Shown here one piece after another: positions 49,634-64,000 of a DNA stretch of 64,000 nucleotides. The DNA comes from Mycoplana azooxidifex (GTDB lineage: Bacteria > Pseudomonadota > Alphaproteobacteria > Rhizobiales > Rhizobiaceae). The first letter of the stretch is position 1. The number at the start of each line of letters is the position of its first letter. The stretch covers positions 372,001 to 436,000 of the forward strand of contig NZ_JACIEE010000002.1 of the NCBI RefSeq assembly GCF_014196765.1, in the 5' to 3' direction. A model generated the notes under the pieces. That model saw only the letters and a program-made list of their open reading frames with translations. It ran no database searches and was not told the DNA's origin. The position numbers and the translations under genes are program-made.

Positions 49634-49872
49634 GCAGATCTCCGTAAGGGCGCCGGCGCCATGGCCGGCCAAGGGCAGGAAAACGGACTGGCCGCATGCG
49701 CCCGACACTAGCCGATAAGCCTCGGGCATTGAATTGAAATTCGAAGCCCGCCGCCTTGCATCGTTCGCCCGGCAGGCGGCAAAGAAACTTGCGCCCGACA
49801 GACATTATGGATTGTCCGCCGCTTTTGCCTTTGCTATCAGGCTCCAGCCTGCAGGGCCTTCGGCCCGCATGC

Positions 49873-49947
49873 TGGGGCGTCGCCAAGCGGTAAGGCACCG
49901 GTTTTTGGTACCGGCATTCCCAGGTTCGAATCCTGGCGCCCCAGCCA
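49873..49947 (+). tRNA. tRNA-Gln (UUG)
   Basis: Full cloverleaf: acceptor TGGGGCG paired with CGCCCCA, D-arm GCCAAGCGGTAAGGC, anticodon arm CCGGT-TTTTGGT-ACCGG with anticodon TTG at 49905-49907, T-arm CCAGG-TTCGAAT-CCTGG, discriminator G and encoded CCA (49945-49947). Closely similar to E. coli tRNA-Gln. It is followed within 170 bases by a tyrosine recombinase, so it is the probable integration site of the element that begins here. Confidence 0.97.
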
Positions 49948-50018
49948 AGCTTCCCTTTTCCAGCCAGAATCTTGGTTTTCCAGCACTTCCGAATTAGCTG
50001 GGAATCAAATTCGGGGCG

Positions 50019-50070
50019 CTGTCGTACAGGACTGTCTTACACGACTGTCGTACATAGCTGTCTTACACGA
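50019..50070 (+). repeat. Four 10-bp direct repeats on a 13-bp period
   Basis: CTGTC(G/T)TACA occurs at 50019, 50032, 50045 and 50058, exactly 13 bp apart, alternating G, T, G, T at the variable base. They lie between the tRNA-Gln gene and the recombinase gene, where arm-type recombinase-binding sites would be expected. Confidence 0.75.
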
Positions 50071-50113
50071 AGGCGAACCAAGTCCTGCTCCCCCTCTTAG
50101 CAAAGGGTTTAGC

Positions 50114-52171
50114 ATGGCAACGATTCAACACGTCTACAAGCGCGGTTCCGTCTACTGGTGGCGGCGGCGTTTACCACTTGGAACAGGTGTTCATGCTTGG
50201 GTGAGGCTCGAAATCAGCCTGCACACCAAGGAACTGGAACGGGCGCGGGTCGTCGCTCCGGAGGTGACGCTTGCCAGCCATCGTCTCCTGCCCAGCCTGA
50301 GACACAAGATGATATCGCCGGAAGACGCAAAGAAAATCCTCATCCAAGCCGCCAAGCAGCACAGCTTCCATCTGGATGCGATGATGGCGGCTGGTTCGCG
50401 GGCAGGCGTCGACGCAGCAAGTAAACGGTCAACGGAGATTGGGACCGGGTGGGCGTTTCGTCTGTTCGCCGCGCAGGGGATCAATGCAGGGGGTGGTCCA
50501 GACGAAGAGCGCGAAATGCGCGCCGCCGGCCTTGATGACGAGATGATCCAGGGCGTTCGTGAGACAATGGCGTTCCTCGGCACCAATGGCTTTGGCCAAA
50601 TTAGTCGCCGTCAACTGGAGGCCATCCTCAAGGACCACAACATCGCACCGGCGGAGGCGCACATCCTCCAAGCCGAGCAGCTTTGCTTGCGCGGCATGTC
50701 GGCAGCGTTGCTCAATACTGAACGGCGCTGGTCCGGCGTTCGACCTGACGATATCGTCCTCTTGAACGCGGCGCTTAGCAGCGATACGGCAGCGACGGCT
50801 GCATCGCATACTACGCCGCCTCAGGCCATTTCGCAGCAAACGTCGCCAGTGCCATTTGCGAACCGAACAGCACCGTCGTTTTCACAACCGGGAACGGCTC
50901 TTGAGAAAGTGTCTGCGCCGGTTCGTGCGATCGCGGTTGCGGTTCCTCCGGTGGAAACGGAGGACGAATTCGATCTCGACGACGAGGATGAAGCGGAACT
51001 GGAACTGCAGGATTCGGACAAGGGACTTGTCGAAATCGTCCAACTGGCAGCAGAGGAACGGGTCGCGACCAAAGAATGGCGACACAACATGGTCAAGCAG
51101 CACGTGAGTATTGCCAAGTTGTTTGTCCGATTCGTGGGACACGACCAGCCGGCACGCTTGAGGCAGCGCAACATTTCGGAATTCCGAAGCATGTTGTTCA
51201 AGCTTCCGAAAAATCACGGAAAGTCGCCGAACGACCATATCATGCCCCTGAGCGGGCTTCTGGCTCGTGCCACGACGTTGCCGCCCGAGGAGGTTGGCTT
51301 GTCGCCCGCGACGATAAATCGCTACATGACACAGATGGGCAACATCGTCGACATCTGCAAACACGCGGGATTTCCATTCGGGAATTTCGAGGGTGTTTCT
51401 GGCCTGAGAACCAAAAGGAAGGGAGACGTCAGAGGCGAAAGGGGACGATTTTCCACCGAGGAACTGCAGACGATCTTTTCGCTACCAGTGTGGGAAGGTT
51501 CGACCAGCTTCGATGAGCGCTTCGCCGGCGGGCAAGAAATCTTCCATGACGCCGCCTATTGGGTTCCGTTGCTGGCGATCTATATCGGAGCCCGCCGTGA
51601 AGAGATGTGTGGCTTGCTCCTCGATGAGGTCGAGACCCATTTTGAGCTTCCGTGCATCCGCATTGAGGAAAACTCCGTCCGCAAGCTGAAAAACGCTCAA
51701 TCGAAGCGGCGCGTGCCTATCCACCCGGAATTGCTCCGCCTCGGCTTCCTTGAATACGTTGACGCGCTTCGCAACCTCGGTCACGTCCTGTTATTCCCCG
51801 AACTGAAGGCTGCATCCCCGACGACGCCAATGGGTGACGTATTTGATGGCAGTTGGCAAAAAATACGATCGACAGCGCTGCCCAAGGCCAAGGATGATGG
51901 GAAGGTCCTGCATTCGCTGCGCCATTGGTGCAACAATGAAATGAAGCAGGCCGGCATTCGCGAGGAGTACCGAAAGGATATCCTGGGGCACACCAACGAG
52001 GGTGTGAATGAGGGACGTTACACCGACCCCGCGCGACTGCGTGTCATGGCCGATGCGCTGTCAACATTGCCTATGCCGACCGCGCATCTGAAGGCTCATC
52101 CGATCCGACCGATCGAGTCAGTCCTTACGCATTCTTCCCGACCGGCACGAACCAAGAAATCTGCGGCGTGA
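50114..52171 (+). CDS. Site-specific tyrosine recombinase (DUF6538-type integrase)
   Basis: A 685-residue integrase. The N-terminal part (YKRGSVYWWRRRLPLGTGVHAWVRLEISLHTKELERARV) is the DUF6538-like arm-binding region of large rhizobial integrases, and the middle has a long acidic linker (about residues 275-300). The C-terminal catalytic domain shows the conserved residues: Arg in YIGARREEMCGLLLDEV, Lys region VRKLKNAQSKRRVPIHPEL, LHSLRHWCNNEM (H-x-x-R), GHTNEGVNEGRY with the His and the Tyr nucleophile. It is full-length, so probably active. Adjacent to tRNA-Gln, its likely target. Confidence 0.93.
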   Translation: MATIQHVYKRGSVYWWRRRLPLGTGVHAWVRLEISLHTKELERARVVAPEVTLASHRLLPSLRHKMISPEDAKKILIQAAKQHSFHLDAMMAAGSRAGVDAASKRSTEIGTGWAFRLFAAQGINAGGGPDEEREMRAAGLDDEMIQGVRETMAFLGTNGFGQISRRQLEAILKDHNIAPAEAHILQAEQLCLRGMSAALLNTERRWSGVRPDDIVLLNAALSSDTAATAASHTTPPQAISQQTSPVPFANRTAPSFSQPGTALEKVSAPVRAIAVAVPPVETEDEFDLDDEDEAELELQDSDKGLVEIVQLAAEERVATKEWRHNMVKQHVSIAKLFVRFVGHDQPARLRQRNISEFRSMLFKLPKNHGKSPNDHIMPLSGLLARATTLPPEEVGLSPATINRYMTQMGNIVDICKHAGFPFGNFEGVSGLRTKRKGDVRGERGRFSTEELQTIFSLPVWEGSTSFDERFAGGQEIFHDAAYWVPLLAIYIGARREEMCGLLLDEVETHFELPCIRIEENSVRKLKNAQSKRRVPIHPELLRLGFLEYVDALRNLGHVLLFPELKAASPTTPMGDVFDGSWQKIRSTALPKAKDDGKVLHSLRHWCNNEMKQAGIREEYRKDILGHTNEGVNEGRYTDPARLRVMADALSTLPMPTAHLKAHPIRPIESVLTHSSRPARTKKSAA

Positions 52172-52235
52172 GTGAGTCTGAATCAATCATAAATTGAATT
52201 AGAAAGTACGTCATTAAAATGCAAACTAAAAAATC

Positions 52236-52273
52236 TTGCCGCGTTGAATTCATTTGAGAATCCAGCGCGGCAA
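52236..52273. promoter_or_regulatory. Inverted repeat downstream of the integrase
   Basis: TTGCCGCG at 52236 is matched by CGCGGCAA at 52266 (8-bp arms, 22-bp spacer) in an unusually AT-rich stretch. A TTGACA element lies at 52323. It may be an operator for the next gene or a weak terminator of the integrase. Confidence 0.35.
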
Positions 52274-52415
52274 ACGGCGGGAATCTCTTATGTATAGAGA
52301 AAAACCGTTAAATTACATAGTGTTGACAATCGCGGTTGTAACGCATTTTCGAAATCCATGTCACCATTATCTTACGGTCATTGATGAAGACCGGATTAAA
52401 ACGGAGACAAGACGA

Positions 52416-53516
52416 ATGGCGAAATACACTCATAAGAAGAGGCAGGCGATCGCCGAGACCAGGCCGGGGCAGACCCTCAGCCGGGCACAGCAGGGCGAGT
52501 TGAAGTGGCTACGGGACGCGTTCCAGTCGCTCGGACGTCGGACGACAGCGCAGGCTTACGAGGTCGGCGGCTACCTCGTGCGCGCAAAATCCATTCTCCC
52601 GGAGAGGGCGCTGGGCACGTGGATCAAGGCGGTGTGCAAGTTCACGCCGAAGACCGGTCGCAACTACATCGCGGTCCATACCAACCTGATGGAGTACAAA
52701 GAGCGCCTTGAGGCCGCGGCGGTCGCTCCGACAGTCCTGTTCGTGCTGGCCTACGCCGAACAGCCGGACGTCGAACGGGTTATCTCGGCAATCGAGGCTG
52801 GCGAACAACTCACCGTCGCCCAGGTGAAAACCATGGTCGGCGCGGTGCCTACGAAGAAGGCGACGAATGAAGCGGCCCTCGACGTCGGCGGAATGGCCGG
52901 TCTGCGCAAGATAGCCGAGCTTAAAGTCGAGGAGGACTCGGTGAAGTTCCTCCAGCTGACAACCGGCATCCTGAAACGCGTCGAGAAGGCCATCGAACCG
53001 CTGGCGCAGAACCGTGCGGTGTTCAAGGGTCCGTTGCAGGAATTGATCATGGACGACTGCAAGCACGCGCACGATCTGATCAACAGCATCGCGGCCCCCT
53101 TGCAGCCGGCGATGGTTGCGAGCGTCAACTGGCGGCCGGCCAGGCTGACGGAAGGCACGACCTGGCGCAAGGTGCAGGAGCTTCTGTCCGCCATGGGTGG
53201 AGCCAACGGCTGGCCGGGCAGGGAAGATTTCGCCCCCTGGCTTCAGGCCGAGGTCATTCCCCTGCTTCGCTTCGTCGTCCACGGTGAAGCCTTGCAAGGC
53301 GACGGTGGCGGGGACGATAGTGTGGATGCCGCCGCTCCGCTCGACAATGAGGCTGATGATGGGCTGTTCGCATTCGAAGACATGCCCTCCAAGGTACAGG
53401 AAACCGTTGCGAATGCTCTGGAGATCGTGTCACCCGAGCGCCGGGACGAGATCAGGAGCCAGATCGTTTTCGATCCCAAGCCCATGAAACGCCAATACAA
53501 GAAGCTGGCAGCTTGA
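52416..53516 (+). CDS. DUF3102-like protein of an integrative element
   Basis: A 366-residue protein of unknown function. The N-terminal third (AYEVGGYLVRAKSILPERALGTWIKAVCKFTPKTGRNYIAVHTNL) resembles the DUF3102 pattern found in phage and plasmid proteins (a helical segment followed by a DNA-binding-like region). The middle is helical and the C-terminus acidic (EADDGLFAFEDMPSKVQETVANAL). The start is ATG at 52416; the open frame extends upstream into AT-rich non-coding DNA. It is followed by a clear terminator. The role in the element is unknown; possibly transcriptional or partition related. Confidence 0.65.
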   Translation: MAKYTHKKRQAIAETRPGQTLSRAQQGELKWLRDAFQSLGRRTTAQAYEVGGYLVRAKSILPERALGTWIKAVCKFTPKTGRNYIAVHTNLMEYKERLEAAAVAPTVLFVLAYAEQPDVERVISAIEAGEQLTVAQVKTMVGAVPTKKATNEAALDVGGMAGLRKIAELKVEEDSVKFLQLTTGILKRVEKAIEPLAQNRAVFKGPLQELIMDDCKHAHDLINSIAAPLQPAMVASVNWRPARLTEGTTWRKVQELLSAMGGANGWPGREDFAPWLQAEVIPLLRFVVHGEALQGDGGGDDSVDAAAPLDNEADDGLFAFEDMPSKVQETVANALEIVSPERRDEIRSQIVFDPKPMKRQYKKLAA

Positions 53517-53530
53517 AGATGACGTCCAGG

Positions 53531-53560
53531 AGCCCCGCCGCCGTGCGGGGCTATTTTTTT
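53531..53560 (+). terminator. Rho-independent terminator
   Basis: AGCCCCGC at 53531 pairs with GCGGGGCT at 53545, loop CGCCGT, followed by A and T7. It lies 15 bases after the DUF3102-like gene and separates it from the nuclease-ATPase-protease cluster. Confidence 0.85.
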
Positions 53561-53765
53561 GTCTGCTGGTTGCCGCGTATGCCGTTAACCATACCGGGGC
53601 TCTCTGTTCCGGATGCGTTCTGACCGGCTTGCCGGACACGATTCTCCGGGCTATGTCGACGGGGTCAGCAGAAACTGAATATATGCAGACACTTAGCGGC
53701 CCCCGCCGGTGCTCGAACACCGAACGAGGGCCTGACCCGCAACCTTGTGTTCTAAGGAATGGGCT

Positions 53766-53900
53766 ATGTCGACCCTTACCTGCTTCGCTTCCGAACGGGA
53801 AGCTTCTCCGTCTGCTGATCCTGTTGATGAGCGCATGTCGCCGCGGCGCCGGTTGGCATCGTGTGCGATCGCCCACGCCTCTGGGCTGGCGCTCGCCTGA
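53766..53900 (+). CDS. Possible small protein, 44 aa
   Basis: An open frame of 44 codons (MSTLTCFASEREASPSADPVDERMSPRRRLA...) preceded by AAGGA about 8 bases upstream. It has no recognised sequence and could be chance. The rest of the 520-base gap between the terminator and the next gene shows no gene. Confidence 0.25.
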   Translation: MSTLTCFASEREASPSADPVDERMSPRRRLASCAIAHASGLALA

Positions 53901-54042
53901 TCTCATTCAACTGATCGTCCCTGACTTCGGACACGGCTTCGTTTGAAGCCAGCCGGTCCCCGGATGCGGAAATCATTTCCGTGTCGGACGCCGTGCGCCT
54001 GAAGTTTGCGGGTCGATCGCTACCGTCAGCAGGAGCAATACC

Positions 54043-54954
54043 ATGACGACCATTTCTTCCGGTGTGCCTGACGCGCCCGCCTATCCGGCTACCGTCGATC
54101 CCGACGCCCTCCAGTCCCGCTTCGAAGTCCTCATCGACGAGCTTTCGTCGCAACCCTTCTCGGCCGGCGCTCTTTCCAAGGCGCTTGCCGGGGGTGTCTC
54201 TGACGCCGCCGCGATCCTGCGCGCCATTCCTATCCAGGAAGGGAGGCTGCTCGAGCGCGGCATTGGGATCATTGCCGACCTTAACCCGGACCTGGTGGTG
54301 CTGACGCAAAATTTGCGGTTGCCGGTCACGAAGACGGCGCTCGAGCTGGTCGAGAAAAACGATCCGAAACACTTTCGGTCCCTGACGCTCGATGCGGATA
54401 CCGGCGGGCGCAAAACATATACGCCGGACCTGATCATCGTGAACAGGAAGACGAAACTCGCGCACGTCATCGATGTGAAACGCAGTCTCGGCTCGTACGA
54501 GGTATCACGTATCAATGATCTGAAATGCCGCATGCTGGCCGCAGCACTCGTCGTTCCCGATCTCCTCTACCGCGACCATCATCGGCTGGTGGCCGAAGAA
54601 GTCCGCGTCGTCATCCTGAACGCGGAAAACCAGCGCTCCGACATTGCCGGCGGCGTCTGGCCGCTCAGCGATCTCGATCATCTTGTCGAGGTCGGCGGGG
54701 CGGGGAAGGCGATCGGCATGCTGCGCGAACGCTTCCATGCACGGATCGACGAGAACTGGAAGCTGGCTCGAAATGCCTTTTCCGGACCGACTGAGGAACG
54801 GGTCCGTCGCGGTGCCTCGGCGGACATTGCAGACGCGAACGAAAGGGAGAGGTGCGATCCTGGCGCTGGCTCGATCACCGAGGTCCATCAGCCAGTTGGT
54901 CGTGGCCAAATCCGTGTCGGCTTCGCCCGCATCCCACGGACCGGCATGGGCTGA
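54043..54954 (+). CDS. PD-(D/E)XK nuclease-like protein of the element cluster
   Basis: A 303-residue protein of unrecognised family. Its central part has the hallmark of PD-(D/E)XK nucleases: Asp129 in TYTPDLIIVN, a beta hairpin of about 13 residues, then HVIDVKRSLGSYEV with Asp144-x-Lys146. An acidic residue upstream in ALELVEKND could be the first catalytic Glu. The N-terminus and the C-terminal tail (from about residue 240) are low in order. The ATG follows AGGAGC. It is the first gene of a co-directional set with a 139-residue protein, an AAA+ ATPase and an M41-type peptidase. Whether it cleaves DNA is inference. Confidence 0.65.
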   Translation: MTTISSGVPDAPAYPATVDPDALQSRFEVLIDELSSQPFSAGALSKALAGGVSDAAAILRAIPIQEGRLLERGIGIIADLNPDLVVLTQNLRLPVTKTALELVEKNDPKHFRSLTLDADTGGRKTYTPDLIIVNRKTKLAHVIDVKRSLGSYEVSRINDLKCRMLAAALVVPDLLYRDHHRLVAEEVRVVILNAENQRSDIAGGVWPLSDLDHLVEVGGAGKAIGMLRERFHARIDENWKLARNAFSGPTEERVRRGASADIADANERERCDPGAGSITEVHQPVGRGQIRVGFARIPRTGMG

Positions 54955-55036
54955 CAGGCCCGCCGACGTTCCTTTCCGCTTTCTGTTCCATTCGTTCGCG
55001 CCGAACCGTGCTGTTCGGCGACAGGAGACGTCTGTC

Positions 55037-55456
55037 ATGAGCCGACACCCTTCCAACGTGATCCCTTTCCCAAACAACCTTGCGCACGAAGTACCTTCGA
55101 CGCCGAAGCCGTCCAGCCAGCTGAAGCGACTGACGAAGTTGCAAGGGGCGACGAACCGCGGCGTGACTTCCAGGTCACAAGCCATTCCTCAGGCCATGGC
55201 CATGTGCGCGGCAATGCCCGCTGCCCTGCCCGATCCGGCAATCGTCGCCCAGGTCGTGATCGGCTTTGCCCGGCGCAAGGGCATCGCCATGACCAGCATC
55301 CCGAAAATCTTCCGTGAGCAACTCTTCACGCTGTGCGCGGCCGGCGATCCGACGGCGCTGATGCTGCGCGACTGGCTCGAGGGCAATCGCAAGCTGCTGG
55401 CCGTCGATGGGATGCCCACCCCTCACTGTATTCATGGAACAGAGGAGGGCGCGTGA
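55037..55456 (+). CDS. Hypothetical protein, 139 aa, coupled to the AAA+ ATPase
   Basis: A 139-residue protein not recognised by sequence. The N-terminus is Pro/Ser-rich (MSRHPSNVIPFPNNLAHEVPSTPKPSS), the rest helical (QAIPQAMAMCAAMPAALPDPAIVAQVVIGFARRKGIAMTS, LFTLCAAGDPTALMLRDWLEGNRKLLAV). A CAGGAG site precedes the ATG at 55037. Its stop overlaps the start of the AAA+ gene (ATGA), so they are translated together. It may be an adaptor for the ATPase; this is inference from coupling only. Confidence 0.6.
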   Translation: MSRHPSNVIPFPNNLAHEVPSTPKPSSQLKRLTKLQGATNRGVTSRSQAIPQAMAMCAAMPAALPDPAIVAQVVIGFARRKGIAMTSIPKIFREQLFTLCAAGDPTALMLRDWLEGNRKLLAVDGMPTPHCIHGTEEGA

Positions 55457-57492
55457 TGGAAACCCTGACCGATCGCATCACGCGCTATCTGCTTGCCCGC
55501 ATCCGTCGGCTTGCCATCCTCGATCTTTACGAGCGCGCCGCCGTCGTCGGATTGCTGGAGGCGGACTTCATCGTCGCGGGCGATGAGACGACCGGCACGG
55601 TCTGGCGTGTCCCGGAGGAATCCCTGCGATTGCTCGACGCCGACCCGGCAAAGGTGCGGGCCGAACTTGTGCGGCGTCTCGGGAAAGCGCCATACAAGAC
55701 GACGGCGATCGATGTGCTGATCCAGGACCTTCCAGGAGAACCGCCCCATCAAAACGTCCGTTCCGCCCCGAAGGAGAGGACCGATCGGGAAAACCTTGCC
55801 GTCGAGGGTCGCCTGGAATCGCAACCGGTCGATGCATCGAGCGCTTCTGAAGCACCATCGGCATCCAGCGAATTCCTGGCGCTGCTTCGCGAGCAACTTG
55901 CTCCGCCGAGCGTCGCCCATGTCGCCGTCGCCCTGCTGGTCGCCCGTGCCGTTGGCTCAAGCGTTGCCGACTTGTCGGCGCTGTCAACCGTCCTTCGAAC
56001 CCCTGGCGCCTTTGTGCTGATCAAAGCGCCGGTTGGCCGCTTCGAACGCCGCTTCGGTATTATGCTAGAGGACGGCTTGATCCTGCCATACTGGATGAAA
56101 CTCGAAGACGTTCATCGCAGCAGCCCGCTCTCGGACGGTTACGGTGATCGCCGCCGGGGAAAGACCCGCAAGACGATCAAGACACTCGCCGGCACCGATG
56201 TGCCGAAGGCGGTCGAGCGGTCGTTGAGCCGCTTCCTCGTGGATGTCCTGCTGGAGCGGTCAGCGCCCGTGGTTCTTGCCGATGAGACACAGACCGCGCT
56301 TCCGCCTTTTGTGTCGATGACGGCCGATCTTATTCTTGAGGCCGGTGGTCTCCATCATGAATTCATCGCGGAACTCCTGCAGACGTGTTGCGGTATCGCG
56401 CCGAAGCAGTCGCTGCGACAGATGGAAAGGATGGCGCTCGACCTTGAAGGGCTTTCGATCGATGCGCTGGCGTTGGCAATTCGTCCCGGACGTGGTCTCG
56501 AACACATCCTGTCGATCCTCGAAGTCCTCGGCGAACGGGCTCGCTCCGCCGACAAGTCGGACGATGATGATAACGATGGCCGCGGCTCCGGGCGCGGCAG
56601 CGGTAGGTCGGGGCGGCCGAAGGTCAAGAGCCGATTTTTGATCAAGGACGGTGATGAACCGCCAAAATCCGTGGACGGGATCGACGTCGTTCAGCCGGAA
56701 AAGGCGGCGGAGGCATCCGGGAAGGAGGGCGGCGGTGGCGCATCCGTTGATCCGGCCAATCCGGAACACAGCCGACTGCGCCATCTGCGGGTCGAGACGC
56801 TCTCGGGTTATGGCGAGGCGCGGGATTGGGCGCTCGACCTCAAGACAGACCTTCAGCTTTGGCGCGACGGTGGGCTGGCCTGGAGCGAGATGAGTACGAA
56901 ACTGATCCTGTCGGGACCGCCCGGCACCGGCAAGACGACCTATGCCCGCGCGCTCTGCAATACATTGCAGGTTCCGCTGCTTGTGACATCGGTGGCGTCT
57001 TGGCTTGAACCCGGCTATCTCGGTGATGTCCTGAAGCGCATGTCCAAGGCCTTTGAGCTGGCGCGGGAAAATGCGCCGGTCGTCCTGTTCATCGACGAAA
57101 TCGACAATATCGGTAGCCGCTTTGGCGGGAGACGCGAGCAGCACGATGACTACTGGCGCTCGCTGATCAACCGGCTGCTTGACCTTCTTGACGGGACTTC
57201 AAAGACCGATGGCGTGATCGTCGTGGCGGCAACGAACCTCCCCGAAAAGATCGATCCGGCCCTGCTGCGGTCCGGACGGCTCGAAAAGCATGTCGCCATT
57301 CCCCTGCCGGATTTGGGGGCGCTGACCGGCATCCTCGCTCATCATCTCGGTGACGATCTGGCTGTTGTGTTGGCGTCCGCGCCGTCAGGCAGCCCCAAAA
57401 CGATCGAAGCGACACGGCAGCGCCATGCCGATGTCGGCAGTGATGCGGACGTCATTGACCAATCCAATAGAGGAGCTCCCCACAATGTCTGA
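55456..57492 (+). CDS. Soluble FtsH-like AAA+ ATPase
   Basis: A 678-residue protein. The N-terminal 370 residues are not recognised and contain no membrane span, unlike genuine FtsH. A charged, Gly/Ser/Arg-rich linker (about 370-400, SDDDDNDGRGSGRGSGRSG) follows. The C-terminal part is an AAA+ module of the FtsH/CDC48 type: Walker A GPPGTGKTTYARAL (near 487), Walker B VVLFIDEIDN (near 545), sensor AATNLPEKIDPALL and Arg-finger RSGRLEKHV (near 600). The lid domain is missing, and it is supplied by the start of the next gene. Its stop overlaps the start of the peptidase gene. Confidence 0.8.
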   Translation: METLTDRITRYLLARIRRLAILDLYERAAVVGLLEADFIVAGDETTGTVWRVPEESLRLLDADPAKVRAELVRRLGKAPYKTTAIDVLIQDLPGEPPHQNVRSAPKERTDRENLAVEGRLESQPVDASSASEAPSASSEFLALLREQLAPPSVAHVAVALLVARAVGSSVADLSALSTVLRTPGAFVLIKAPVGRFERRFGIMLEDGLILPYWMKLEDVHRSSPLSDGYGDRRRGKTRKTIKTLAGTDVPKAVERSLSRFLVDVLLERSAPVVLADETQTALPPFVSMTADLILEAGGLHHEFIAELLQTCCGIAPKQSLRQMERMALDLEGLSIDALALAIRPGRGLEHILSILEVLGERARSADKSDDDDNDGRGSGRGSGRSGRPKVKSRFLIKDGDEPPKSVDGIDVVQPEKAAEASGKEGGGGASVDPANPEHSRLRHLRVETLSGYGEARDWALDLKTDLQLWRDGGLAWSEMSTKLILSGPPGTGKTTYARALCNTLQVPLLVTSVASWLEPGYLGDVLKRMSKAFELARENAPVVLFIDEIDNIGSRFGGRREQHDDYWRSLINRLLDLLDGTSKTDGVIVVAATNLPEKIDPALLRSGRLEKHVAIPLPDLGALTGILAHHLGDDLAVVLASAPSGSPKTIEATRQRHADVGSDADVIDQSNRGAPHNV

Positions 57493-58235
57493 GCCGATCC
57501 ACACGATCGCAACAACACAGCATCCCGATCTTCGACGGCTGGCCTTGCTGGCGACCGGCAGCACCGGAGCCGACATTGAGCGACTTGTTCGTGACGTTCG
57601 GCGAAAAACCAGACGGCAACAGCGGTCGCTGACCTGGGGCGATCTCGAGCATGCTCTGCTTGCCGGCCAGGTGAAACTCTCGGACGATGTACGCTGGCGT
57701 ACCGCCATCCACGAGGTCGGTCATGCGATCGCCTTCTGTGACATGGGGATCGCAGAGGTCATCACGGCAAGCATCGGGGTCGGAGGAATGGGGCAAGGTG
57801 GTCAGCCGGCAATGTCAACATCTCCCGCAGACGCAGGACTGGCTGATGCGCAGCATCGCCTGCATGTTAGCAGGTCGGACGGCAGAACTGCTGATCTTTG
57901 GCGAGGCGGTGGCCGGGGGAGGTGGATACGATGATAGCGATCTGGCCAGGGCCACCGAACATGCGGTCGCCGCCGAGACCCGGCTCGGGTTCTCCAATCA
58001 TCAGCCGTTGCTCTATCGGTCATTGGCGGTAAGCATCAACGAGCTCAGTCTCGACCGGCAGCTGGCTGACCGGGTCAACAGTCGATTGATGGAAGCCGAA
58101 GCGATGGCACGCAGTCTGCTGGAGAACAGGCGGGACGCGCTGGTCACCATCGCCACGCAGTTGACGGATGTCAGGGTCATGACGGGCGAGGAGATCACGC
58201 GCCTGCTCATCGCATCCCCCGGTCCACCGGCCTGA
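57485..58235 (+). pseudogene. M41-type zinc peptidase of the split FtsH-like pair, frameshifted
   Basis: The protein that follows the AAA+ gene by overlapping start and stop (ATGTCTGA). Its first part supplies the AAA+ lid (LRRLALLATGSTGADIERLVRDVRRKTRRQQRSLTWGDLEHALL) and then the zinc site HEVGH (residues 76-80). After about 57795 the reading frame changes; the rest, DWLMRSIACMLAGRTAELLIFGEAVAGGGGYDDSDLARATEHAVAAETRLGF, is M41-like with the third zinc ligand Asp in DDSDLARAT and is in a different frame. As written no intact peptidase results. The change fits an 8-base deletion between two GGTCA words, or a sequencing error. Confidence 0.8.
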
Positions 58236-58261
58236 CGAAAACCAACGGGGAGCTCTGAAAT

Positions 58262-58366
58262 TGCGATTCCTGCCGGCGCCACTGCGATTCACCGTTCCCG
58301 AATGCCGATTCCGAAGTCGCGGAAATCGATTCCGATCTGCGGCAGTTCGATTCCCGCCCCCGGTAC
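58262..58366. repeat. Five 21-bp repeats centred on GATTC
   Basis: GATTC occurs at 58265, 58286, 58307, 58328 and 58349, exactly 21 bp apart. The surrounding bases (nnCGATTCC) are partly conserved; the remaining 12 bases of each unit vary. Every unit contains a GANTC site, the target of the CcrM methyltransferase. The unit length also equals seven codons: read on the plus strand in the frame following the peptidase stop, it gives heptads of the AIP/PIP/SIP kind. It lies 27 bases after the peptidase gene, in a 650-base stretch otherwise without a gene. Confidence 0.75.
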
Positions 58367-58884
58367 CGGCACCGTTGGGACGAGTTCGGGTGACCTGCCA
58401 TCGGCAGCCGTCGGAGGTGGCGTAGGCTGCAAGAGGGCGATGACGAGGTGCATGGAGTGACCCTCGATGCCTCACCAAAATCTAGTCGGAGAGTTGGTTG
58501 GGCAGGCCTCAGGGTACGTTGTCGAGAGTTGTGATGCTGTCCACCGCGAAGGCGGCATCTCAACGTAGAGGCAACGCGCTTCACGCCGGCTCAAGGCTTC
58601 TGCAAATCTACACCCGTCAGATCAAAGCGCCGTGCCTTGGTCTACGTTCCGGGCAACTCGAAACACATCATCTCAATTTACCCTTCCGCGATTCCTGTTC
58701 CAATTTTGTCGTTGCAAAGTCGCGATCGGCGATTCCATCAGACCGCGTTTGCAGGCCGCGCACCGTCCGGCTGGCGATTGGAGACGATCCGACCCTCCCT
58801 GTCCGAGATATCAACACAGGCACCCCCGCTTGTTCCTTGCGTGGCCGGCACCGAGGCTGAGGCTCCACAACAAGGAGACAGGCA

Positions 58885-59220
58885 ATGCCCCGAAAATCGA
58901 AGAAACAACGCAGTGCAGAACAAGTCGCCCGGCAGCAGCGGGTGAGGGATGCGGCCAAGGCCCGACGTCGGCCGTCTCGTGATGATTTGGCGAGGGTGCT
59001 GCTCTGGCAGATGATCACGGCCGCTCAGAGACGGGAAGATGCGCGGCTCGCCCTGGACAAGCTCAGCGAAGCCATCGTCGGCGAGCTGGAACGCCAGGGC
59101 TTCGATGTCCGCGAAAGCGAGGATGTCTTCGAAGACCTGGCCGATCGGTACTCGGATGGCCTGTTTCCGTTCCGGCCCAAATGGCATCTCAAGCCTCGCC
59201 CTATGGTCTCCCAACCATGA
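58885..59220 (+). CDS. Hypothetical protein, 111 aa
   Basis: A 111-residue basic protein (MPRKSKKQRSAEQVARQQRVRDAAKARRRPSRDDLARVLLWQMITAAQRREDARLALDKLSEAIVGELERQGFDVRESEDVFEDLADRY). The N-terminus is Lys/Arg-rich and helical, possibly nucleic-acid binding. An AAGGAG site precedes the ATG. It is not recognised. It lies within the element, apart from the protease cluster, and its neighbour downstream is a degraded restriction gene. Confidence 0.55.
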   Translation: MPRKSKKQRSAEQVARQQRVRDAAKARRRPSRDDLARVLLWQMITAAQRREDARLALDKLSEAIVGELERQGFDVRESEDVFEDLADRYSDGLFPFRPKWHLKPRPMVSQP

Positions 59221-59284
59221 TGGTGATGGCGCGGTGCGGCGATGTCACCTCACACTTCCTCTGAAGTCTTGCAGCATCATTCCG

Positions 59285-59345
59285 CAAACGGCGTTCCATA
59301 CTTCCCAACGTCTTCCCCCCATTACTCCTGATCACGCCGTTTGCA
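59285..59345. repeat. Perfect 10-bp inverted repeat at the left of the hsdR remnant
   Basis: GCAAACGGCG at 59285 and CGCCGTTTGC at 59336 are exact reverse complements separated by 41 bases. It lies 88 bases before the hsdR-like sequence begins and may be a stem-loop or the scar of a small transposable element. Confidence 0.4.
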
Positions 59346-59432
59346 GTGGAATCGAAAATTCACAGCAGGTCGTCATCACCTGTTCTCAGGGTTGCATTGA
59401 CGCTGCGAACACTATTCATATTCTTCTTCACC

Positions 59433-60290
59433 AAGGGGCGGATCACCGTGCGTGGCAAGCTGGTCGCCCGCGGCAACGCCAAGAAGACGGACGTCGTCCT
59501 CTACTATAAGCCGAATATCCCGATCGCGCTCATCGAGGCGAAGGACAACAATCATGGGGTGGGTGATGGCCCGCAGCAGGAGCTGGACTACGCCGAAACG
59601 CTGGCTATCCCCTTCGTGTTTGCCTCGAATGGCGACGGCTTCGTGTTTCATGATCGCACCGGCCTGCGGGACCTAAAGGAAGAAAATCTCCGCCCAGACC
59701 AGTTCCCGTCGCCAGACGAGCTTTGGCGGCTCTACAGCCAATGGAAGGGTCTGGATACCTCCGCAGAAGCACTGGTGCTTCAGGACTACTACGATGACGG
59801 CAGCGGCAAGGCTCCGCGCTATTGCCAGGTCAACGCCGTCAACGCGGCCATCGAGGCCATCGCCAAGGGGCAGGATCGCGTTTTGCTGGTTATGGCGACG
59901 GGGACCGGTAAGACCTCTACCGCCTTCCAGATCATCTGGCGTCTGTGGAAGGCCGGTCGCAAGAAACGCATCCTGTTTCTCGCGGATCGCAACGTCCTGA
60001 TCGACCAGACCATGGTCAACGACTTCCGCCCCTTCGGCGGCGCGATGGCCAAGCTCTCGACCAAGTCGAAGACGATCGAGCGCTCGGACGGAACGGAAGT
60101 GGACGTGCCGCTGGCGCTGGACATAAAGCGCCGCATCGACACCTCCTTTGAAATCTGTCTCGGTCTCCATCAGGCCATCACCGGCCCAGAGGAACGGCAA
60201 AAACTGTTCCGCGAATTCTCTCCGGATTTCTTCGACCTGATCGTCATCGACGAGTGCCATCGCGGCAGTGCTGCCGAAGATTCTGCCTGA
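59433..60290 (+). pseudogene. Truncated type I restriction subunit R (HsdR)
   Basis: A remnant of the motor/endonuclease subunit of a type I restriction system. It begins at [41 protein letters not shown], so the first part of the N-terminal nuclease domain is missing; the D...EAK catalytic pair is seen. The helicase begins with [20 protein letters not shown] (motif I) and reaches the DEAD-like [13 protein letters not shown] (motif II), where a stop occurs. About three quarters of the normal protein is missing, including all later helicase motifs. No hsdM or hsdS is nearby. It cannot work as a restriction enzyme. Confidence 0.85.
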
Positions 60291-60650
60291 CGGGAAAACT
60301 ACGGGCGACGTCGCTACTACTCTTGCGCCGTCGATACTTTGTAGCGCGACGATAACTGCCAGAGCGCAGAACTCATTCCAAGACCGGGTCTGCCAGCGCC
60401 ACAGTTCATCGACGATTGGCTTGCGGTTAGGCAGTTCGTGCCAAAGCGATCACTACCTTCGTTGTTGGGCTCATGCTGCGCAGGTCCGCCGCGATCGCCC
60501 TCCCACCCTTCGTGCCGAGCTAAATCCGGAGCTGCGGGAACGGGTCGGCATCTGATGATCGTGCAGTACATACTCGTCGAGGGATCTTCATTATTGTGCC
60601 GTTGGTGCGAGGTGCTCGCACGGGGAAAGGGTCATCGATCTGGCGTTGTG
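60291..60650. other. Non-coding gap between the two pseudogenes
   Basis: About 360 bases with no recognisable gene; short open frames carry stop codons or no conserved sequence. It probably holds other decayed gene fragments. Confidence 0.35.
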
Positions 60651-62212
60651 TCAGACCTGCGAGTCAATCGGGAGGAGTTTCACGAGGTCGGCGACGAAAC
60701 GCCGGCGGAACCCCGCTTCCGGCTCGTCCCGGTAGCTGACAATCTTTCCGTCCCGCACCGTCTCCCAGACGATCCCGCCATTCGGATCGAGGAAGACACG
60801 GTAGCTGTTGACGGGCGCGACCCCGGTCGCCATGTAAGCCGTCAGCCTCTCGGCAAGTTCGGGGCTTTCGATATAGAGACCGGCTTCCGTGTTGATCAAC
60901 TCAGATCGTGGGTCGAGATTGAAGCTGCCGATGAACACGGCCTTGCGGTCGAAGACCATGGCCTTGGTGTGCAGGGCCGCCCGCGACAGGCCGGAACGGA
61001 GCGACCAGCCCGGCCGGAAGGCGTCGGTGTCCGGACGCAGCTCGTAGAGCTCCAAACCGTTTTCGAGCAGGCGCCTGCGCGTCTTGGCATAGCCCGAATG
61101 CGCGGCGAGCTGGTTGTTCGAAGCGAGCGAGTTGGTCAGCACGCGCACCCGCACTTCGCGCTCGTGCAGGGCCTTGACGGTCGCCTGCGCCCCGGCGGGC
61201 AAGACGAAATAGGGTGCCTCGGCGAGCAACTCCTCCTTCAGCTCGGCGACCCGTCCGCGAATGAAGGTGACTACGTCGTCGGCTGCCTTGCCGCTGGCGA
61301 TTGCTTCGGGGTCGTCGGCGATGATCCGGCCTGGCGCCCACACGAGACTGTCGCGCAACTCGGCGCCCCGGGCCGCCAGCGCGTCGAGATCCTGATCGAT
61401 CGGATAGGGGTATTCGACGGCGGCGATCTCCTTTCGCAAGCGGGTGAGGATTGCCTCGAGATCGGCGGGGCCATGGCTCGCGCGACTATGGTTGCGATCG
61501 GGACGGTCGAGGCGCTGTTCCAGTAACGGTCGAACACCCCCGACAGATCGCTCACCACGGGCCCGACCGCCAGCACGTCCAGATCGCGAAAATTGGCGAC
61601 GGTGTTCACGCCATAGTAGTCGTCGCCGATGTTGCGGCCGCCAACGATCGCCGCTCTATTGTCGGCCACCATCAGCTTGTTGTGCATGCGGCGGTTGACG
61701 CGGCGGAAGTCGACGAGGAAGTCCAGCCTGGACCACCTGCGGTTACTGGTCGGGTTGAACAGACGGATCTCGACGTTCGGGTGGGCGTCGAGGGCAGCTT
61801 TGACCTGATCGCTGGCCTTGTAGTAGGGATCGTCGACGAGGAGCCGCACACTGACCCCGCGATCGGCCGCCCTCATGACCCGTTCGACGATGATCCGGCC
61901 GGTCGTATCGCCGTCCCAGATATAGTACTGCATGTCGAGACTGCGCTCGGCCAGGTCGGCGAGTGCCAAACGGGTGATGAAGGCCTCCCGCGCCTGGCCC
62001 AAGAGGCTGAAACCGGAGAGGCCAGGATGCGCGGCGGCCGCCGGGCCGAAGAACCGGCCCAACCGGGTAGATGCGGCATCCTCGAACCCCGTCATGCCCT
62101 CACCTCTGGTTAGTGGCGGCGGCGATTGGTCTCCTTCGAGACGCTGCATGATCTGGGCCTTCATCGTCAGGTCGTCTGCTTCGGAGGCGAGGGTCTGGTT
62201 GATGTAGCCCAC
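60651..62212 (-). pseudogene. Phospholipase D/cardiolipin synthase-like gene with one frameshift
   Basis: A protein of the phospholipase D superfamily, with two HKD motifs: HNKLMVADNRAAIVGGRNIGD in the first half and HTKAMVFDRKAVFIGSFNLDPRS in the second. It resembles cardiolipin synthase C (YmdC/ClsC), which makes cardiolipin from two phospholipids. The first half (62212 to about 61470) and second half (about 61465 to 60651) are in different frames, and the shift falls at a run of C (GGGG at 61467-61470 on the plus strand), fitting loss of one base. Otherwise the gene reads in full, ending in LLPIDSQV. The N-terminus lacks a signal peptide. Confidence 0.85.
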
Positions 62213-62545
62213 TTCGTCCTCGGGAACGCCAGCCGACCTGTCGATTCCTTGATCGGTCAGCCATTGCGCCGTCGCGCGGTCGAGTTGGACTTTACGAAAA
62301 CCGTGTGCCCAATGTGAACGCTAGGGAATAGGCGCCGCAAACAGCGGGCGTCACCTGCTGCTCCCCGCCTATGTTCTAGTAAAACGATAGCATGGTTCAC
62401 ATGCAATGTCGTCGCCGTTCAAATTGGGGCGGTGCGCGTGAGGGCGCTCTTGGGTATTGCGGAGATCCGCGGCTGGCGACCTCCGGCGTGGCGAAGGTGA
62501 CGGGTCCCGGAAGCTTACCGCGTATGCCCGGCCGGGCATCACTAC

Positions 62546-62808
62546 TTTTTTGTCGTCGTTTCTGTGATTGCACATCTTATCGAGATCATGGTTTGGGCGG
62601 TCGTGTACCGGCCGACGGGCCGAACTGCCGAGCTTCGAGGAAGCCGTCTATTTCTCGGCGATCACCTTCGCCACGATCGTTATGGCGACATCACGCCATC
62701 CTCCGAGTGGCGGCGCGCAAGTCCATCGAAGGTATGAACGAAATCCTATTGTTCGGCTGGACCGCGGCATGTCTCTTCAAGGTATCGGAAACATGGTTCT
62801 CGCGGCGG
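62546..62808 (+). pseudogene. Two-transmembrane potassium channel, shattered by frameshifts
   Basis: A decayed ion-channel (Ion_trans_2) gene. In one frame: VSVIAHLIEIMVWAVVYRPTG, a typical transmembrane helix. In another: ELPSFEEAVYFSAITFATI, the pore helix; and in a third the filter and the end: EGMNEILLFGWTAACLFKVSETWFSRR. The selectivity filter would read TIGYGDITP but a base is missing between ATCG and TTATGGCGAC (about 62679). At least three frame changes are needed, so it is certainly not functional. It is bounded by non-coding DNA. Confidence 0.75.
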
Positions 62809-62830
62809 ACGCCCATCAGAAGACCGATCG

Positions 62831-63214
62831 ATCGTGAAAGTAACCGCTTACGGTGCGGGACGCGCCACAGGGGACACGAGGACCAGAGCTACGCAGCCAT
62901 GAACGCCTGTCCCTCGCTTGGGGGGCTTCGATTGACGAGACCTACAATGGCTGGGCTTCGTGACCTGCTGGGCGAGTTCGGGGCAAGGTCTCAGCTCATC
63001 CTCGATGAAGCCCACCCGCGCCATGCGCCGGATTGCAGGCGGCTTCGAGCACCATCTGTACCTGTAGGCTAAGCCGCATAACGGCCATCTCGGGTCTCCT
63101 GCAATGAAATACATCCACTGCTTGAAACGCTTGCACAAGTGTGTACTATTACAAAATAACAGTGTGCATTTAGTCATATATCGGGTCGTCGGCCATCAGG
63201 TCGAGGGGGGCGCC
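62831..63214. other. AT-rich intergenic stretch before the transporter gene
   Basis: About 380 bases with no gene. The part from 63120 to 63180 is AT-rich and includes TTGCACAAG and TACAAAATAAC, which could be promoter elements for the transporter. The last 50 bases have no clear ribosome-binding site apart from GAGGGGGG at 63203, just before the start. Confidence 0.35.
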
Positions 63215-64000
63215 ATGATTGACTGGTTCGTGAACACACTTCGTACCTATCCTGAAATTGCAATATTTCTATCCTTGGCCCTCGGGTATTACTTCGGCTC
63301 CTTTACTTACAAGGGACTCGGCCTTGGAGCTGTAACTGCCACGCTTGTAGCTGCCGTGATCATCGGTCAGATAGGGATCACGATTTCGCCCCCTCTCAAG
63401 GCGACATTCTTTCTGATGTTCCTGTTTGCGATCGGCTACGGAGTGGGGCCGCAGTTCGTCCGCGGCATCGCGAAAGACGGCATACCGCAGGCATTGTTCG
63501 CCGCCGTCGTTTGCGTCTTTTGCCTCGGCGCACCCTATCTTGCAGCCAAGTTCGCGGGCTACGACGTTGGATCCGCGCTAGGCCTTTATGCCGGTTCACA
63601 GACCATATCCGCGTCGATGGGATTGGGAACGGACGCGATCAATCGCCTTGGCCTGCCGCCGGAAGAAACCAAGCGGCTGCTCGATGCAATGCCGGTGGCC
63701 TATGCCGTTACCTATATCTTCGGCACCGTCGGATCGGCCATCGTGCTGGCACTGTTCGGTCCTGCGCTTCTCGGCATCGACCTGGAGGCGGAATGCAAGC
63801 GATACGAGGCCGAGTTCGGTGGCAAGAAGGAACTGGGAGGTGCCGGTACGGCCTGGCATCACTACGAGCTGCGCGCATACCGCGTGCGCGAGGGTGGGCC
63901 GGTCGTGGGAAAGACGGCTCGTGCAGCCGAATCCCTTATTCCCGAGCAGCGCGTGTTCATCGAGCGCATCCGCCGCGGCGGGAAAATCGAGGACGCGACT
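63215..64000 (+). CDS. AspT/YidE-type transporter, partial
   Basis: The first 262 codons of a gene that runs off the right edge. The protein ([55 protein letters not shown]...) has five or six N-terminal membrane helices, followed by the start of a cytoplasmic region ([39 protein letters not shown]), which is where TrkA-C domains begin in the AspT:alanine exchanger family. The family includes aspartate:alanine antiporters and putative transporters YidE and YbjL. A GAGGGGGG site precedes the ATG. It seems intact as far as can be seen. Confidence 0.85.

Follow-up and report, generated by a model that had tools for sequence, protein, structure and literature searches.

The window analyzed here, 64,000 nucleotides (nt) of Mycoplana azooxidifex (contig NZ_JACIEE010000002.1; G000:C2:372001-436000 in our coordinates), contains on its plus strand four genes for a likely PD-(D/E)XK nuclease, a small protein, an AAA+ ATPase and an M41 peptidase, and a conserved RNA element precedes the operon. 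Comparison with other genomes establishes that this gene set is conserved in the same order, that ATPase and peptidase occur in split and fused forms, and that the 5′ element belongs to the arrangement. The spread and context of the cassette give good support to an accessory role in conflict or maintenance, with defence as the first choice. The explanation we prefer, to which we assign a probability of roughly 0.4, is that rhizobial islands and plasmids carry it as an accessory conflict system, most likely for defence against phages or rival elements and possibly also for maintenance of the element. No description of this gene combination was found in the open-licence literature searched.

Organization and recurrence of the operon

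The four co-directional open reading frames (ORFs) are located at 54043-54954 (nuclease-like protein, 303 amino acids [aa]), 55037-55456 (small protein, 139 aa, no known family), 55456-57492 (ATPase, 678 aa) and 57485 onward (peptidase), as described in an earlier note on this DNA. The overlapping stops and starts reported there are also present: the stop codon of the small gene and the start codon of the ATPase gene share 1 base, and the ATPase stop and the peptidase start overlap by 8 nt (ATGTCTGA). The peptidase is interrupted in the window. Its first frame (57485-57934) encodes the remainder of the AAA+ lid and the HEVGH motif, and a second frame (57687-58235, with homology starting at about codon 31 of the ORF) encodes the remaining M41 domain (Pfam M41, E = 2.7e-9); both align with unbroken peptidases. 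Relatives with the peptidase in one ORF exist, for example L022 and L023, which show 88-89% identity across window positions 53516-59354. Most likely the window copy is decayed or the draft sequence has an error at the peptidase, and the system in the window is probably inactive, unless the interruption is an assembly error.

The earlier note had proposed to look for the same neighbourhood elsewhere with an intact peptidase, and it was found repeatedly. Among plasmid records, 52 matched the ATPase at E 1e-30, in four cases with 80% or more covered in a single place, and 11 matched the nuclease; scanning genomes with the nuclease alignment yielded 79 loci, covering the best 80 of 86 relatives. 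Overall, 92 loci contained the nuclease, one of them being the window's own (L001), and 78 had at least 4 kb of downstream sequence. All four genes were present in the same order in 72 of these 78, a few with one interrupted gene. The ATPase occupied two ORFs in five of the 78 loci and the peptidase in two. The small gene was not found by hidden Markov model (HMM) in five (L065, L081, L095, L098 and L100), of which L098 also had no ATPase and no peptidase; divergent candidates were seen by eye in the other four and in the later locus L123. In L014, the ATPase ends before insertion sequence genes and no peptidase was found. Most of the loci were collected via the nuclease, and these rates indicate how often the rest accompanies the nuclease, not the reverse.

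Two further genes usually accompany the operon and, together with the 5′ RNA, are new beyond the earlier note. Gene U (52416-53516, plus strand; start codon picked by eye) is DUF3102-like with E = 0.049 only, and 60 of the 87 loci with enough upstream sequence have an HMM homologue there in the same orientation. Gene D (58885-59220, plus strand) encodes a Lys/Arg-rich protein of 111 aa, and 52 of the 76 loci with enough sequence have an HMM homologue in the same orientation at most 2 kb downstream. When pairwise sequence distances were compared between nuclease, ATPase, peptidase, U and D, they correlated with each other (r = 0.72-0.90), and none of 500 permutations was as high for any pair. 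A hairpin with a T-run resembling an intrinsic terminator follows gene U at about 53532-53561 (plus strand), in agreement with the terminator that the earlier note had placed ahead of the cluster; like the note, we read it from the sequence.

The system is patchy, accessory and mostly found in Rhizobiaceae. With the nuclease profile, matches were found in 55 of 297 genomes at the family level, in 8 of 397 at the order level and, at the class level, in 1 of 337, which is the genome of the window itself. Most of the named loci from the genome scan belong to Rhizobiaceae, and Aurantimonas, Consotaella, Aquamicrobium and a Devosia bin contribute one or two each; several genomes have two or three copies, and unbroken copies occur in many rhizobia and Shinella. 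Carriage by phages was considered and rejected, as only one of 106 pattern-matching IMG/VR stretches encodes a relative, and the best 10 of 93 phage records matched the AAA core only, none of them over 80% of the query.

The encoded proteins

Searches of Pfam, NCBIfam, PADLOC and PHROGs gave nothing significant for the first protein. Nevertheless, E66, E71, Y126, D129, D144 and K146 were invariant in 55 aligned rows, so that the D...D-x-K core recognized previously (D129, D144, K146) stands together with two invariant acidic residues; a plasmid homologue outside this set (L014) has Glu at position 144. The AlphaFold model (predicted local distance difference test [pLDDT] 82.1) contains the elements of the PD-(D/E)XK fold in order (alpha-beta-beta-beta-alpha-beta). 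In a Foldseek search with this model, the top matches were R2 endonucleases, BstEII and MunI, with a best PDB E-value of 5e-3; non-nucleases were also among the matches, and none of the 166 matches reached E ≤ 0.001. The profile search of PDB sequences gave a best E-value of only 0.46. Thus the structure check suggested by the earlier note agrees with a nuclease in the order of the elements of one AlphaFold model, and less so in the Foldseek matches, which are weak. The first gene likely encodes a PD-(D/E)XK nuclease, a putative DNA-cutting enzyme.

The ATPase matched Pfam AAA (E = 2.4e-33) and, far below that model's cut-off, NCBIfam FtsH_fam (E = 1.5e-32). Walker A (G487, G490-K493), D547/E548, N594, R605 and R608 were present in all 60 ATPases, so that the FtsH-type Walker A, Walker B and Arg residues noticed earlier are invariant, as is the sensor; position 521 in the pore loop was Y, H or F in all 60. 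The conserved AAA core starts from approximately residue 444, and the protein ends after the first lid helix. About 440 residues therefore precede the core, not 370 as the earlier note had counted. Its claim that the ATPase has no membrane span is likely, though not certain. Hydropathy of 1.6 was reached within the first 128 residues in only one of 60 ATPases, but over the whole length in 20, and the window protein peaks at 1.78 (residues 153-171), within a helix that belongs to a domain predicted to be folded; an FtsH candidate of the same genome (L103:7878-9842) peaks at 2.43, in a strongly hydrophobic segment.

The model of the ATPase (pLDDT 74.2, predicted template modelling score 0.51) suggests a degenerate first AAA-like domain at about residues 138-370. 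Tandem AAA proteins of the p97/Cdc48 type were ranked first by Foldseek, over about 500 columns and with a best E-value of 3.8e-16. However, the TM-score was approximately 0.27 and the first domain would lack Walker A. An internal AAA duplication at the sequence level was searched for with hhalign and rejected (no repeat found, probability 0.2).

In the peptidase, HExxH and D150, an Asp aligning with the third ligand of FtsH, were conserved in 63 of 63 sequences, a set that does not include the window pieces, and the best matches of its profile were FtsH structures (E = 1.1e-29). The cluster thus resembles FtsH in its AAA core with the arginines of the second region of homology, in HExxH and the third-ligand Asp, and in lid helices before M41. 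It differs from FtsH in the absence of a detected hydrophobic N-terminal segment in 59 of 60 ATPases and in the long part ahead of the core. In addition, the main clade has the ATPase and the lid plus peptidase on two genes instead of one polypeptide, and the cluster is accessory and in an operon with a nuclease.

In none of the 78 nuclease loci with 4 kb or more of downstream sequence were ATPase and peptidase fused, and the gene boundary falls within the AAA+ lid. On the other hand, a fused ATPase-M41 gene lies beside a relative of the nuclease in 10 divergent loci (L108, L115-L122 and L128) from 7 genomes, some of which are near-identical. Because the two are one protein in these loci, the ATPase and peptidase are considered to be functionally linked. 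In a tree of the AAA core and M41, built with split rows thinned at 68% identity and a single long-branched FtsH outgroup, the split forms grouped with the fused L119 and L120 (support 99/98), and the other fused forms were outside. L114, which also has two ORFs, was left out of the split group in the tree and in the approximately unbiased (AU) test because its ORF break does not fall at the lid. Although L119 and L120 are nested in the split clade, a single split clade was not rejected (AU p = 0.325), and we do not claim re-fusion in these loci. The distribution of split and fused forms is most simply read as a single fission, within the lid, of an ancestral FtsH-like fusion, a sequence of events that hangs on the one long-branched outgroup. 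Programmed frameshifting from ATPase to peptidase was also considered and set aside: by coordinates, the frame relation varies among loci (L010 and L013 are unlike most), and plain translational coupling is therefore preferred.

Fused ATPase-M41 genes were also seen where no relative of this nuclease was detected (L101, L102, L020, L011 and L015), two of them in the window's own genome. Metallophosphoesterase genes adjoin L011 and L015 according to the annotation, and were found with Pfam near the nuclease relative L106 and in L181.

The RNA element before the first gene

The 5′ RNA element occupies 53665-53772 on the plus strand (nhmmer match 53690-53757) and consists of an upstream hairpin, a core hairpin (53698-53732) and a third hairpin (53743-53757) that leads into a Shine-Dalgarno-like AAGGA and a start codon at 53766. 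In the window this codon opens a short ORF of 44 codons (53766-53900, plus strand) that begins MSTLTCFASEREAS; many of its relatives have a similar beginning (MSTLxCFAS..EAS), and it could be a leader peptide.

By nhmmer, 109 copies of the element were found over the loci collected. Of 121 loci with the nuclease, 108 have the element ahead of that gene; one other had no room and 12 gave no match. Ten of these 12 are very divergent in the nuclease, and L115 has a copy according to a relaxed pattern. The start codon at the end of the element is in frame with the nuclease ORF in 48 cases, whereas in 58 it begins a short ORF of its own; two cases were left unclassed.

The alignment of the RNA contained 93 of 103 distinct copies; the ten omitted (L023, L043, L086, L109, L110, L112, L121, L122, L123 and L128) include several of the most divergent. 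RNAalifold on this MAFFT alignment gave five pairs only with a covariation term of 0, and both-sided changes were seen in two of the five. Since the inner stem was misregistered in the MAFFT alignment, the stems were tested by permutation of the arms between loci instead. The core stem was longer than with permuted arms, at 4.77 against a mean of 3.98 (maximum 4.26, 300 permutations; n = 70 distinct arm pairs, not corrected for relatedness), and the upstream hairpin was longer as well, at 5.26 against 4.45 (maximum 4.78, likewise not corrected). In addition, CCTT...AAGG was present in 82 of 85 distinct downstream stretches. As the permutation ignores relatedness and the RNAalifold covariation term was 0, the stem tests give support for a conserved RNA structure, not proof.

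Model R1 of the element, which is essentially a sequence model with five pairs and also matches in the window, matched 64 places in 40 of 199 family genomes, and a nuclease match followed less than 1 kb downstream in 48 of them. Of the other 16 places, one has a nuclease at 1.8 kb, two (L179 and L180) precede the other operon genes with no nuclease among them, two (L175 and L176) have a weak nuclease match, and one (L171) is accompanied by gene U and a truncated ATPase. Two lie beside gene D (L173 and L174, the latter also with U), two are followed by the contig end (L177 and L178), L181 has a distant AAA gene and metallophosphoesterases, and no part of the operon follows in L182, L183 and L184; one partial match fell outside the locus inspection. 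A solitary high-scoring copy without an operon behind it was seen at L172:4258-4363. Across the phylum, R1 matched 5 of 249 genomes at E 0.01, the own genome included. Three of these matches are weak (E = 0.004-0.009), and in the other (L185) the hairpin precedes a gene with a sub-threshold GIY-YIG match (E = 0.0012) and an AAA gene.

In Rfam, only tRNAs reached the gathering score, both in window positions 49800-64000 searched at a permissive threshold and in eight loci searched at the gathering threshold. The 3′ hairpin of scr4677, a Streptomyces small RNA, has nearly the same sequence as the 5′ RNA (GGCCCCCGCC...GAGGGCCUGACC). However, scr4677 belongs to another phylum, and the match (E = 0.0012, 26.2 bits) is far below the gathering score of 41. 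PMC3896431 describes scr4677 as encoded upstream of SCO4676, on the opposite strand.

Function and genomic setting

The nuclease slot may be exchangeable between PD-(D/E)XK and GIY-YIG types, as hinted by L185 and by L021, where a gene annotated as GIY-YIG (with only sub-threshold related domains in the domain scan) precedes a fused ATPase-M41. These hints, together with neighbourhoods rich in defence genes, fit a role in defence or maintenance. PADLOC models were scanned at E 1e-10 with 140 of 266 representative neighbour proteins and, as controls, 140 of 232 proteins from 19 arbitrary stretches of family genomes; the neighbours matched 161 families and the controls 21. Among the 25 listed of the 161 are OloA, OloB, Druantia methylase, DrmD, BrxB, PtuB and type I specificity subunits, and the names include parts of Olokun, DISARM, BREX, Septu, Druantia and type I restriction; GmrSD_N was found in two neighbour proteins. 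Judged by their names, the 21 control families look mostly like helicases and other housekeeping relatives.

Several observations weigh against reading the cassette as a defence system built of these parts. The PADLOC counts are of families, not proteins, and one protein can match many redundant models: of the 25 families listed, nine are type I specificity models, each matched by a single protein. The controls are arbitrary contig stretches rather than other islands, defence genes ride on islands without functional links, and according to Pfam, which was run on the neighbours alone, there are transporters, regulators and metabolic enzymes of ordinary kinds among them too. The repABC genes that adjoin the set in three plasmids also fit maintenance, and the structural matches of the nuclease are weak, with non-nuclease folds among them. 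Co-occurrence was measured from the nuclease side. In addition, the nuclease is missing from L179 and L180, which retain the RNA, small gene, ATPase and peptidase, and HMM detected no M41 gene in the stretch examined for three weak nuclease relatives (L105-L107, 39-49 bits; an AAA gene is nearby in L105 and L106), so that neither part is indispensable everywhere.

If defence is correct, the mechanism might be as follows, where complex formation, trigger, target and direction of regulation are what we infer from the sequences. The PD-(D/E)XK protein would be a DNA-cutting effector. ATPase and peptidase would form a soluble FtsH-like AAA+ protease, in which the peptidase subunit provides the remainder of the lid in trans; a target protein would be threaded through the pore of the ATPase and cut by the zinc peptidase. 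The small protein may be an adaptor or inhibitor for the nuclease, and the target of the AAA+/M41 regulator could be the small protein, the nuclease or a protein of the invader. When an invader is sensed, ATP-driven unfolding or proteolysis would switch the nuclease on, and the 5′ RNA would restrain translation of the operon until it is needed. In its full form, an RNA-gated nuclease-unfoldase-protease immune system of rhizobia, with a lid supplied in trans, an interchangeable nuclease (PD-(D/E)XK or GIY-YIG) and a 5′ RNA switch ending at the first start codon of the operon, this scheme is tentative, and we regard it as possible but doubtful. If true, it would place an FtsH-type protease among the components of bacterial conflict systems and give a natural example of an AAA+ module cut inside the lid, with fused relatives available for comparison. 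The 5′ RNA would then be a defined regulatory element amenable to testing, and the unbroken copies in many rhizobia and Shinella open the system to study.

McrBC and Septu are defence systems in which a nuclease effector is encoded with an ATPase on mobile islands, and the present cluster is alike in this respect. To our knowledge, none of the nuclease-ATPase defence systems of this kind carries an FtsH-type peptidase, and no McrBC- or Septu-type model was among the PADLOC matches of the four window proteins.

The closest competing explanation is a toxin-antitoxin-like maintenance module analogous to IetAS/SgiAT, in which loss of the element frees the nuclease or protease and element-free cells die. 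The set is often on plasmids, beside repABC in three, and is also in a tRNA-targeted island. Pairs of AAA-ATPase and serine protease give a precedent on mobile elements: such a pair is described as a toxin-antitoxin system on SGI1, with its closest relative on pTiC58 (PMC5006074), and pairs of this type are reported to act likewise in mycoplasmas (PMC8562856). However, the protease of IetAS/SgiAT, a toxin-antitoxin system that is anti-phage by its model name, is a subtilase (S8), whereas that of the cluster is M41 and is joined to the ATPase in divergent relatives, and the cluster has an extra nuclease, small gene and 5′ RNA. PADLOC IetA models matched only the AAA core of the ATPase (E = 1.9e-22), more weakly than FtsH_fam, and the NCBIfam IteA score was 75 bits against a cut-off of 510 bits. 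In addition, a whole nuclease occurs with a broken or missing protease in the window, in L014 and in L032, where the peptidase is in two ORFs, which argues against a simple antitoxin role of the protease, although drafts may contain errors. The ATPase in two ORFs beside a whole peptidase, seen in L012, L024, L093 and L095, is likewise unexpected under a simple antitoxin model. We consider this explanation somewhat unlikely.

Alternatively, the set may regulate the life cycle of islands and plasmids, the protease degrading a repressor or replication factor, the nuclease acting on element DNA and gene U being a DNA-binding partner. The frequent presence of U upstream agrees with this, as does the block from U to D that L024 shares with the window without the integrase region, as if it moved as a unit. 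By eye, neighbour clusters include tyrosine integrase-like genes in 18 loci and serine recombinase-like genes in 17, and Pfam found both kinds among neighbours. However, the carriers look unrelated, with tyrosine or serine recombinase neighbourhoods or repABC plasmids, which argues against a tie of the set to any single replication or excision system, and no U homologue was found upstream in 27 of the 87 loci. Such a regulator is an unlikely explanation. A housekeeping quality-control protease beside an unrelated nuclease is very improbable: the likeness of the peptidase to FtsH would agree with it, but the distribution is accessory and patchy, the same genome has the separate FtsH candidate described above, and nuclease, small gene and 5′ RNA are co-conserved. 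Defence is retained as the first choice; the neighbourhood recurs, its homologues do not point to a housekeeping pathway and the model of the first gene has its elements in the order of a nuclease fold, the three points on which the earlier note had let its proposal depend.

The cluster lies, as that note had held, within an integrative element. The element is an island of approximately 39.4 kb inserted in tRNA-Gln (49873-49947, plus strand; ARAGORN and Rfam tRNA), of which the window contains the left part. The last 20 bases of the tRNA (49928-49947) are repeated at G000:C2:461373-461392, and in the same-genus genome G645 the DNA after tRNA-Gln is that which resumes in G000 at C2:461401; the extent is deduced from this repeat pair and the uninterrupted junction. 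A tyrosine recombinase, the island integrase, adjoins the tRNA at 50114-52171 on the plus strand (Pfam Phage_integrase E = 7e-5, DUF6538 E = 6e-6, both slightly below the cut-offs). L022 and L023 have window positions 49901-53290 and 53516-59354 in common, whereas L024 shares only 52194-53290 and 53532-59362 and not the integrase region, which suggests a cassette, from gene U through gene D, that can move as one piece.

By eye, ACTGTCGTACA-like motifs are repeated near both island ends (window 50000-50110; G000:C2 about 461250-461320) and are possible arm sites of the integrase. At 59346-60290, an ORF for an EcoAI-type type I restriction subunit R covers only positions 31-293 of a profile of 768 and appears truncated or interrupted. 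A PLD-like protein at 60651-62212 on the minus strand also appears interrupted, being spread over two overlapping ORFs with a PLDc_2 match in each. To the right of the window, the same island carries an Orn/Lys/Arg decarboxylase gene (L104:1060-3801).

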